Below are positions 17,597-20,372 of a DNA stretch of 64,000 bases, piece after piece. Numbering within the stretch: position 1 is the stretch's first letter; each line of letters starts with the position of its first letter. The translations under genes were made by a program, and so were the position numbers. The stretch is taken from contig NZ_AUHP01000012.1 of NCBI RefSeq assembly GCF_000423245.1, positions 62,001 to 126,000 on the forward strand, read 5' to 3'. Origin of the DNA: Ligilactobacillus ceti DSM 22408 (GTDB taxonomy: Bacteria; Bacillota; Bacilli; Lactobacillales; Lactobacillaceae). The notes beneath the pieces are model-generated. The model saw only the letters and a program-made list of their open reading frames with translations. It did not search any database and had not been told where the DNA came from.

Positions 17597-18544
17597 TTAG
17601 TGTTTCTTAACTAAAAACATTTTTTGTAAATAAGCTTGTTTATAGTCTTGTAAAACTTGAATTTTTGCTTCTTGTAATTCAACTTGACGACATAAATTAG
17701 TGAAAAACTCCCCAATTGCTTTTTGTTCAGCTACATCAGTTGGTACATAACATTTAACATGTCGGAAATTATCAACTGGTACTTTTCCGCCTTGTTCAAA
17801 ACGTTGCACACTATATAAGAAATTATACGTAGCTGTTAAAGCTTGAATAAAGTGAACATCGACCCCTTCATTGACACGCATAACATGATATTTTTTAGCA
17901 ACTGAACATGGTTGACTCAAGTTCAAACCACGCACACCACCTAAAAAGTCATCTCCATCATAAAGGTAATCATTTACCTCAACTTTTTGGAATTTCGCTA
18001 ATTCACGATAATCAATATCTTTAATCGGTGTTAACTCTAATTTCATATCAGCTTGTAATTTAACAGCTGGATAATATTCATTTGGAACAACTGGTTGTCT
18101 TGATTCATAAAATAAAGCACTTAAATTAACTTCGCGCCATGGCTCACTAAAACCAGTTAAACGGTCTTTTGGTTGTGAACCTCCATATGTTGGAAAGAGA
18201 CGTTGTAAATACCCATCTTTTAAATTACGAATAATAATCAGACGTTCTTCATTGTAACTAATCATTTTATCGATTTTAGCTAACAGTTGGACAATCCGTT
18301 GTTGTTCCCCAATTTCTTTTGGATAATAAAAAGCAATTCGTTTTTGATCTGCTTCTAATAAAGTTGGGAGCGCTTGGCCGTCTGCCGCAAAGCTATGATA
18401 TCCTTGCGTCACTAAATATTCGCCTAAATAGTCGGCAAACCGCGCCGCAATTGGCGTTAACTCAGCTAAATTAAAGTTTGCAGGTTTTAATTTCCATTCA
18501 TCAGAAAATTTATAAAACCGATATTTTGGCATTTTTTTAGTCAT
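17597..18544 (-). CDS. hsdS: Type I restriction-modification specificity subunit, first target domain shortened
   Basis: About 315 residues. HsdS normally holds two target-recognition domains (TRDs, ~150 residues each), each followed by a conserved helix. Here the second half is complete (GFSEPWREVNLSALF to VLQDYKQAYLQKMF, ~residues 130-312). The first half begins like a TRD (YRFYKFSDEWK) but reaches the central helix (EQQRIVQLLAKIDKMI ... LKDGYLQRLF) after only ~80 residues, so about half of TRD1 is missing. ATG 18542-18544 overlaps the hsdM stop by 8 bases, with GGTG 7 bases upstream. An A7 tract follows the start codon. Confidence 0.85.
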   Translation of the reverse strand: MTKKMPKYRFYKFSDEWKLKPANFNLAELTPIAARFADYLGEYLVTQGYHSFAADGQALPTLLEADQKRIAFYYPKEIGEQQRIVQLLAKIDKMISYNEERLIIIRNLKDGYLQRLFPTYGGSQPKDRLTGFSEPWREVNLSALFYESRQPVVPNEYYPAVKLQADMKLELTPIKDIDYRELAKFQKVEVNDYLYDGDDFLGGVRGLNLSQPCSVAKKYHVMRVNEGVDVHFIQALTATYNFLYSVQRFEQGGKVPVDNFRHVKCYVPTDVAEQKAIGEFFTNLCRQVELQEAKIQVLQDYKQAYLQKMFLVKKH

Positions 18545-20129
18545 GCAAATCACCACTCTTTGTTGTATCGATTAGCTCTGCTTCTAAAGCTTTAAAATCT
18601 TGTTGAGCTTGGACTAATTCACTATCAATTTGTTCAAGTCGTTCTTTAATTTGCAATAAATCAATTTCTGGTTCTGGTTGAATTTGGCTTACATAACGCG
18701 GAATGCTTAAAATATAACCATTTTCTTTCACATCAGCGAATGTTACTAATTCTGCATAACCAGGATGTGTCACCCGGTTTTTATATGTTGTTGCAATTTT
18801 TTCAATTTCATCATCGGTTAATTTATTTTCTGTTAAACCATATTCAAATTCTTGTGATGCATCAATGAAAATAATATCATCAGTTGTTTTATTTTTCTTC
18901 AAAATCATTAAAACAGCTGGTTGTTCTGTTCCGTGGAAAATATTTTCTGGTAAACCGATTACCGCATCAATTTGATTATTTTCTAAAAGTTTTTGACGAA
19001 TTTCACCTTCATTATCACCGGCAAATAACGCACTGTGTGGTAAAACAATCGCCATTGTCCCAGTTTCAGACAAATGATGTAAACCATGTTGTAAGAAGGC
19101 ATATTCTGGACGATCAGCTGGAGCTAACACGCCATATTCTTGATAACGTTCATCGCGCAAACGACTAAAATCATTATCCCATTGTGCTTGAATTGGTAAA
19201 TTCATCACAACCGCATCAAATTTAGATACTGGAGCAATTGGCCAATCTTTATCTAGACTATCACCGTTACGCACGTCCATGCGATCATATCCAACACCGT
19301 GCATCATCAAGTTCATACGAGCGACATTATACATAGCTGGATTCACATCTTGTCCATAATAATGTACAATTTCTGGTTCTTTGGTATGTTCACCAACTGT
19401 TAATAACAATGATCCTGAACCTAGTACGGGGTCATACAATGTAATAACTGGTTCACAATCATAATTGATAATATGTGCCATAATTTCCGCAACGGAACGT
19501 GGTGTATAAAATTCTTCTGCTTTTTTACCTGATTCACTTGCTAATTGTGCAATTAAATATTCATAAGCATCCGCTAAAAATTCACCATGGTGTCCTTCGA
19601 TATTAACTTTATTTAAGGCAATAATTAATTGACCAATTGTGCGATCACGTTGTGCTTTTGTTAAACCTAATTTTGGATTATTAAAATCTAAATCAGAAAA
19701 CAATCCAACAAAGGCTGGATAAGATGGTAGTTCTTTTGTTGATTCTTCTAAATCTTTAAATGCTTCCAATAAATCTTCACATTTAAATTCACGTTCTTGT
19801 GCTGATTTTGCAAAAGCACCAAAAAGATTTTCTGGTTTAATCACAAAACCTAGATTTTCACGTAGTTGATCACGGAATTGATCTTGTTCTGCACGACCTT
19901 GCACGATATTTAACGAGTGGAACATCCGAACATAAGCATCTGTCATATCACTATCAACCATCGCAAAGACGCCGGCTGCTTCTAGAGCTTGTTCTGACAA
20001 GAAACGATAAAAAATCAAGCCTAATAAATAGTTCTTATATTCTTCCGCTGTCATCTTCCCACGTAAAACGCTCGCTGCATCCCATAATGTTGATTCTAAC
20101 GTTACGACTTGTGAATTTTTTTCTACCAT
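18537..20129 (-). CDS. hsdM: Type I restriction-modification methylase subunit with altered catalytic motif
   Basis: A 530-residue HsdM of normal length with an N-terminal helical domain and an adenine-methylase domain. The SAM-binding motif reads YDPVLGSGSLLL, and YGQDVNPAMYNVARMNLMMHG is typical. The catalytic motif IV, normally NPPY/F, is NLPI (residues 310-313, DNA 19191-19202); both the second-position Pro and the aromatic residue that stacks on the flipped adenine are lost. The rest (FAFLQHG-like block, IVLPHSALF, FIDASQEFEYG) is intact with no stop or frameshift. No hsdR lies in the window. Shine-Dalgarno GAGGG is 6 bases before the ATG. Confidence 0.92.
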   Translation of the reverse strand: MVEKNSQVVTLESTLWDAASVLRGKMTAEEYKNYLLGLIFYRFLSEQALEAAGVFAMVDSDMTDAYVRMFHSLNIVQGRAEQDQFRDQLRENLGFVIKPENLFGAFAKSAQEREFKCEDLLEAFKDLEESTKELPSYPAFVGLFSDLDFNNPKLGLTKAQRDRTIGQLIIALNKVNIEGHHGEFLADAYEYLIAQLASESGKKAEEFYTPRSVAEIMAHIINYDCEPVITLYDPVLGSGSLLLTVGEHTKEPEIVHYYGQDVNPAMYNVARMNLMMHGVGYDRMDVRNGDSLDKDWPIAPVSKFDAVVMNLPIQAQWDNDFSRLRDERYQEYGVLAPADRPEYAFLQHGLHHLSETGTMAIVLPHSALFAGDNEGEIRQKLLENNQIDAVIGLPENIFHGTEQPAVLMILKKNKTTDDIIFIDASQEFEYGLTENKLTDDEIEKIATTYKNRVTHPGYAELVTFADVKENGYILSIPRYVSQIQPEPEIDLLQIKERLEQIDSELVQAQQDFKALEAELIDTTKSGDLHD

Positions 20130-20231
20130 AAAAAACCCTCATTTCCTCAATAATTGATCTGCACTAATTGGACCGTCGCCAAATGACCTCTTACTTTTTT
20201 CGGTAACGAACTAATTAATCTTATATCTCTC

Positions 20232-20260
20232 ATTTTACCGATAATTAGAAACGATTTCAA
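20232..20260 (-). promoter_or_regulatory. Sigma-A promoter of hsdMS, cre-like overlap
   Basis: On minus: -35 TTGAAA (20255-20260), 17-bp spacer, -10 TAAAAT (20232-20237). The -35 lies in TTGAAATCGTTTCTA, a 14/15 match to one cre consensus. Confidence 0.65.
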
Positions 20261-20314
20261 AAAAAACCATAATTGATTACTAGTAATTTAATATCTACTT
20301 TTCGTTTTTACATT

Positions 20315-20328
20315 ATTTCCCAGGAAAT
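20315..20328. promoter_or_regulatory. Noc-binding-site-like palindrome, one mismatch
   Basis: ATTTCCCAGGAAAT differs by one central base from the Noc binding sequence ATTTCCCGGGAAAT. It is intergenic, between walI and hsdM. Confidence 0.6.
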
Positions 20329-20333
20329 AAAAC

Positions 20334-20370
20334 AAAAGACAACTCCTTTTTAACCAGAAGTTGTCTTTTT
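20334..20370 (-). terminator. Rho-independent terminator of the wal operon
   Basis: AAAAGACAACT (20334-20344) pairs with AGTTGTCTTTT (20359-20369). It follows the walI stop, so the operon ends with walI. Confidence 0.85.
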
Positions 20371-20372
20371 AA

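Follow-up and report, generated by a model that had tools for sequence, protein, structure and literature searches.

The window, a stretch of 64,000 nucleotides from Ligilactobacillus ceti DSM 22408, contains an hsdM-like and an hsdS-like gene side by side on the minus strand (Table 1); the plus-strand reading of the hsdM stretch is ridden with stop codons. The HsdM protein reaches 314 bits against TIGR00497 hsdM (cut-off 242.75) and thus belongs to this family, and PF02384 (N6_Mtase) and PF12161 (HsdM_N) are both found above their cut-offs. As it passes the curated hsdM model, annotation pipelines are expected to label it a working methylase. Its structure model shows a good fold (mean pLDDT 85.9), with a confidence that leans on the underlying alignment. 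When started at its ATG (18544), hsdS overlaps the end of hsdM by eight bases.

Table 1. Location of the hsdM-hsdS genes and of the features discussed in the text (positions in the window)
Feature	Position	Strand	Basis
hsdM-like gene, 530 aa, catalytically degenerate	18537..20129	-	ORF; TIGR00497, PF02384, PF12161
HsdM N-terminal residues 1-60, near-normal conservation rate	19950..20129	-	1/26 sister-unanimous columns changed
Glu205, Gly in 112/112 relatives; GEFYTP motif beside cofactor and target pocket	19515..19517	-	alignment
Motif IV, NLPI replacing NPPY/F, residues 310-313	19191..19202	-	homologue alignment
SALFAG, residues 366-371, GVLFRG in the family; includes R370A (aligned to PacII M1 R336, DNA-backbone contact)	19017..19034	-	alignment
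Leu432, Lys in 108/112 relatives; aligned to PacII M1 R401, minor-groove contact	18834..18836	-	alignment
HsdM C-terminal tail helix, residues 491-522, expected in four-helix bundle with HsdS	18564..18659	-	model secondary structure
hsdS-like gene, 315 aa from ATG	17597..18544	-	ORF; model matches solved HsdS subunits
Remnant of first target-recognition domain (TRD1), HsdS residues 18-77, 60 aa	18314..18493	-	homologue lengths; model confidence low in parts
Coiled-coil region 1 (CR1), HsdS residues 78-118, full length	18191..18313	-	homologues and model
Coiled-coil region 2 (CR2), HsdS residues 269-311, full length	17612..17740	-	homologues and model
Promoter-like site TTGAAA-17-TAAAAT upstream of hsdM	20232..20260	-	string match

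The original prediction had seen in the TTGAAA-17-TAAAAT string a promoter ensuring good expression of the genes. The string is indeed present, but 16 promoter-like sites were counted in the region versus 14.0 (sd 4.4) in shuffles; as such sites are no commoner than in shuffled sequence, it does not argue for good expression. A terminator-like hairpin lies 3' of yycI at 20369-20334 (two such sites found versus 1.7 in shuffles of the region), and a hairpin with a T run, recognized by eye only, follows hsdS at about 17590-17545. An hsdR gene belonging to the pair, as a complete Type I restriction-modification system would have it, was not found in the genome (17 contigs); the two HsdR matches present both reside in other Type I sets, the HsdM proteins of which carry NPPF and NPPY and each of which has its own hsdR.

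A walJ-like gene, named by its N-terminus and not by profile, follows yycI directly or one to three genes further on in 21 of 23 genus stretches, which stem from 23 of the 24 other genus members with a yycI match; no hsdM or hsdS match was found downstream of yycI in these 23 stretches, one of which comprises only 762 bases. The walJ-like gene of the host is situated at C9:19246-20037 and not at the place that follows yycI (window 20130-20372), so that the usual gene order is broken here. A replacement of walJ by hsdMS beside yycI was considered and rejected, as the host's own copy on contig C9 points to a rearrangement without visible link to hsdMS.

Conserved residues of HsdM

Residues 310-313 of HsdM read N-L-P-I (within VVMNLPIQAQWD), where relatives have NPPYSAKW or a similar stretch. 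NLPI had been predicted at exactly these residues, albeit without naming the strand, which is minus. Among 114 full-length homologues, which amount to fewer independent cases because some 26 are near-copies of a single plasmid-type protein and one pair is identical, 112 carry NPPY, one NPPF and one DMPL (113/114 NPPY/F); they were drawn from 120 loci, six of which had partial alignments only and were dropped before counting. A second set of 80 loci, consisting of 79 viral-contig loci and L042 (also part of the first set, the two not having been de-duplicated), covers the motif in 75 cases, 48 with NPPY and 27 with NPPF. The change to NLPI goes beyond chance: NLPI occurs in none of the 114 full-length proteins and of the 75 in the second set, all of them relatives of at most 52% identity. 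Motif-IV mutants are known for EcoKI. In the part of PMC3874165 on which we draw, motif IV is given as NPP(Y/F/W), the slot that grips the flipped base and whose aromatic residue stacks on it. With NLPI, the window HsdM departs from this catalytic pattern, and the pair differs from an orphan active methyltransferase, in which the catalytic motif is intact and the nuclease absent.

NLPI is one of a suite of changes, since HsdM departs from its 114 full-length homologues at 24 of 104 near-invariant columns (at least 97% agreement among the other sequences), while the median sequence departs at none. Other top departers are the DMPL protein L036 (51/108) and L035 (18/101), the next one following at 9/104; once L035 and L036 are excluded, HsdM shows 27 departures in 114 columns. 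Describing the remainder of the protein as intact and well conserved was therefore right for the reading frame and wrong for conservation. Columns unanimous in 112 relatives, again leaving out L035 and L036, are altered by G205E, E261D, S314Q, G366S, R370A, N473I and others. Motif I (DPxxGSGS) is retained, while G205E affects GEFYTP and E261D affects GQE.

Residues were also mapped onto PacII M1, the numbering of which was checked letter by letter. Lost are F279, S280, R336 and R401 (now I313, Q314, A370 and L432), and kept are N276, T367, E170 and F171 (N310, T401, E206 and F207). According to the passages of the PacII study used here, mutants of S280, R336, T367 and R401 reduce methylation (PMC9613975); three of these four positions are lost in the window HsdM and only T401 is kept. 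The backbone-contact mutations in the same passages were made in groups and read out as methylation (PMC9613975), and for this reason a loss of DNA binding by the window HsdM is something that we infer from them. The notion of a dead methylase gains strong support and a wider base than motif IV, as the conserved glycine of GEFYTP and the GVLFRG loop are altered as well. Judged by its residues, the window HsdM is almost certainly a dead methylase: with the base-flipping pocket, the neighbouring GEFYTP-loop residue and several DNA contacts gone, the M subunit should not be able to methylate.

The HsdS partner and the relatives of the pair

Between the entry segment and the first coiled coil, TRD1 of HsdS spans 60 residues versus 133-154 (mean 146) in 14 homologues, meaning that about 86 of some 146 residues are missing. 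The second recognition domain (TRD2) is of normal length (128 versus 120-152 residues in homologues), so that HsdS has one short and one normal target-recognition domain instead of two full ones. Mean identity to homologues amounts to 0.39 for CR1 and 0.42 for CR2. The AlphaFold2 model of HsdS, built from 22 sequences and with a confidence leaning on this alignment (mean pLDDT 83.6), features coiled-coil helices modelled with confidence (residues 78-115 and 271-309), and the TRD1 remnant is modelled with low confidence in places; among solved HsdS subunits it matches 1ydx with Z 16.3 and an rmsd of 4.4 over 272 residues. Elements for assembly are thus present in the form of the confidently modelled CR1 and CR2 and the M helix 491-522, and association of the two proteins is predicted. 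A four-helix bundle formed by the HsdS coiled coils and the M tails is described for PacII in the passages cited here (PMC9613975). Residues 119-311 of the HsdS model also match Esub1 (PDB 8vsq/8vsr; Z 9.9, rmsd 4.0, 177 aligned residues), a solved half-size HsdS-like protein co-crystallised with Prx according to the entry title; no paper naming 'Esub1' was among the matches listed for the open-access literature.

The pair is known from one genome, and no orthologue above 52% identity was found in the genus, family and order or among plasmids, phages and viral contigs. HsdM matches were obtained in 48 of 60 relatives' genomes, in 187 of 397 family genomes at E<=1e-60 and in 6 of 395 order genomes at E<=1e-137 (best 52% in both), and HsdS matches in 10 of 26 genus genomes (best foreign E 2.5e-12), the window's own genome being counted in whichever of these groups contain it. 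None of the 25 other genus genomes contained a near-full-length HsdM match above 42%. Matching plasmid records number 2322, all under 60% identity, and phage records 86, with 44% as the best among the 12 matches listed. An alignment search of viral contigs yielded 79 loci (best 52%) and a single-protein scan of them no match; the same kind of scan of genome contigs returned one locus (45%) and can miss relatives of 52% because it requires exact short peptides. In a tree of 90 rows, which leaves out 24 near-copies (L087-L110) and the outlier L036, the end branch of the window HsdM measures 1.42 versus a median of 0.15, and only that of L035 is longer. It sits nearest to rows of 45-52% identity, at a place without starred support, and the 52% group includes plasmid-borne sets of several lactobacilli (among the best 25 of the 2322 plasmid records).

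These plasmid-borne Type I HsdM proteins of many lactobacilli (52%; e.g. L086, H2-H26) resemble the window protein in length, domain order and the adjacent hsdS and are placed among the rows closest to it in the tree. The sequences read combine NPPY, GEFYTP and GVLFRG with an HsdS of about 399-436 aa, whereas in the window none of the three motifs is intact and HsdS has 315 aa. HsdM from Streptococcus thermophilus (3lkd) shares the fold along most of its length (TM 0.83, rmsd 2.0, 39% identity) but retains NPPYS, GVLFRG and a lysine at the position of PacII R401, which the window protein does not. PacII M1M2S (7vru), a non-canonical Type I methyltransferase, has the same coiled-coil and tail elements for assembly, but as far as the passages used here go (PMC9613975) it contains two catalytically competent M subunits where the window has one incompetent M.

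Because 24 of 104 near-invariant columns are changed, most of TRD1 is lost and no hsdR for the pair was found in the genome, the window pair is, going by its sequence, an orphan M-S pair that is long diverged and catalytically dead, and not the outcome of a single motif mutation.

Decay or retention

Tests for retention cover hsdM alone. When random mutations were introduced into the gene up to the point of 27 changes in the 114 near-invariant columns, a procedure which assumes that the departures accumulated neutrally, 9.9-12.1 stop codons arose on average and none of 900 runs stayed free of stops; the simulation is conservative because indels were ignored. Columns unanimous in 11 sister sequences are changed in 67 of 240 cases, distributed as 1/26 (residues 1-60), 5/25 (61-180), 21/71 (181-300), 20/58 (301-380), 17/54 (381-480) and 3/6 (481-530). 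Residues 1-60 hence differ from residues 181-480 (58/183; Fisher p = 0.002, a value somewhat flattering because the ranges were set after a first look at the divergence), and under a uniform neutral model 11 of 4557 runs left residues 1-60 with one change or none. Extra divergence is spread about evenly over residues 61-480, and the tail shows no extra constraint. The conservativeness of the changes is too weak a test to build on: in four settings, 23, 28, 62 and 77 of 1000 neutral runs reached the observed mean. We read this as a relaxation of the constraint on catalysis, with the open frame and the N-terminal domain still constrained to some degree. The simulations and the conservation of residues 1-60 beyond the uniform neutral model speak for a gene that has been kept, as was originally proposed, and not for plain debris, since equal neutral decay would leave about ten stops.

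That the M-S pair is retained as a non-methylating complex for another role is the reading that we favour, at about even odds, with assembly, DNA binding and expression all being predicted properties. In this reading the pair is an orphan akin to a Type I methyltransferase (M2S) of plasmid type, with an M subunit that the sequence strongly indicates to be unable to methylate and an S subunit lacking most of TRD1. The statistics point to an hsdM frame that was kept free of stops and to an N-terminus that was preserved during the drift of the catalytic domain. The two proteins would still assemble via a four-helix bundle of S coiled coils and M tails and via the M N-terminal domains, and the job of such a complex could be structural or regulatory, by weak or half-site DNA binding or by binding of a protein partner. 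Action as a DNA-binding complex, as suggested before, is undercut by the loss of three of the four positions tested in PacII and by a TRD1 of 60 instead of on average 146 residues. Site-specific binding becomes less likely with several DNA contacts and the greater part of TRD1 missing; bipartite sequence-specific binding by the pair is unlikely, and non-specific DNA binding or binding of a partner may take place. That domestication has turned the pair into a non-methylating particle, which shed catalysis and half of its sequence reading and kept assembly under selection for a new role, be it as a DNA-architectural or regulatory factor or as a decoy for the subunits of Type I systems on plasmids, is a tentative proposal that we consider rather unlikely.

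Slow decay is possible, if somewhat doubtful. An acquired Type I set would have lost hsdR and then methylation and would now drift towards a pseudogene, its frames open by chance or owing to an earlier second role that has lapsed. The long end branch, the 27 changed columns, the large loss in TRD1 and the even divergence over residues 61-480, as free drift would give, fit such a course, as do a tail without extra constraint, changes only weakly more conservative than neutral ones and the lack of a near-full-length match above 42% in the 25 other genus genomes; with one genome and best relatives at 52% there is also no orthologue showing retention over time. Against it stand the stop-free frame that none of the 900 neutral runs reproduced, the conserved residues 1-60, the in-frame nature of the TRD1 loss and the intact eight-base overlap between hsdM and hsdS.

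A dead M or S subunit might also join the subunits of same-family Type I systems that arrive on plasmids, spoil these systems and so shield the host from selfish restriction-modification plasmids, in keeping with the occurrence of the nearest relatives (52%) on plasmids of several lactobacilli and with the retention of assembly elements alongside the loss of catalysis and DNA reading. We regard this as improbable, given that cross-assembly is hypothetical at only 52% identity, that the HsdM tail is not specially conserved and that partial spoiling of methylation could lay the chromosome open to cleavage. A still-active methylase with an unusual motif IV is very improbable: N310, P312, E206, F207, DPxxGSGS and T401 are kept and the TIGR00497 cut-off is passed, but the stacking aromatic and the first proline of motif IV, G205, S314, R370 and K432 have been lost together and TRD1 is mostly missing. 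A sequencing or assembly error at motif IV, conceivable in a protein known from one genome, is negligible, with 24 departures spread along the gene without a frameshift.

Inactive and degenerate methylases elsewhere

Orphan methylases are well known, but those methylate. An M-S pair without methylation that has lost half of its reading and kept its frames and assembly parts would be a clean test case for non-enzymatic Type I complexes. Among the matches listed for the open-access literature, no paper dealt with a degenerate HsdM retained for another role or joined 'hsdm' and 'pseudoenzyme'. A loose precedent is offered by inactive enzyme domains retained in BREX systems, as reported in an excerpt of PMC12839542. 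For the EcoRII methylase, the part of PMC12707154 considered here states that the repressor role persists in a catalytically inactive engineered mutant; the EcoRII enzyme is, however, another methylase, to which a repressor domain is fused, and Pfam indicates no such domain in the window pair.

Within the same genus, L178:6227-7645 (+), also represented by L036 and L261, encodes a further HsdM relative (473 aa) with an open frame and a replaced motif IV (DMPL). Its motif I reads GTAN and 51 of 108 near-invariant columns are changed. Being only 28% identical to the window HsdM, it apparently is an independent case. The gene is immediately followed by a normal NPPF HsdM and by an HsdS, with a half-size HsdS in front of it; given this neighbourhood, the protein may form the silent half of a mixed M-M'-S complex. 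A second copy lies at G006:C11:18717-20084; a second relative at 52% identity occurs in this genome. In three genus members and one other genome (L026-L029), HsdM is part of a frame of 868-882 aa, about 340 aa longer than usual and perhaps a fusion. At L083:4326-5725 in the window's own genome (C1:349-351 kb), a short way upstream of a complete Type I set, a 203-aa frame resembling the HsdM N-terminus lies between two similar ORFs of 97 and 102 aa, which begin MSKNNASKVMKKTMKFY and MDKNKEVKQIKKAMKFY and look like duplicated small genes flanking an hsdM remnant.
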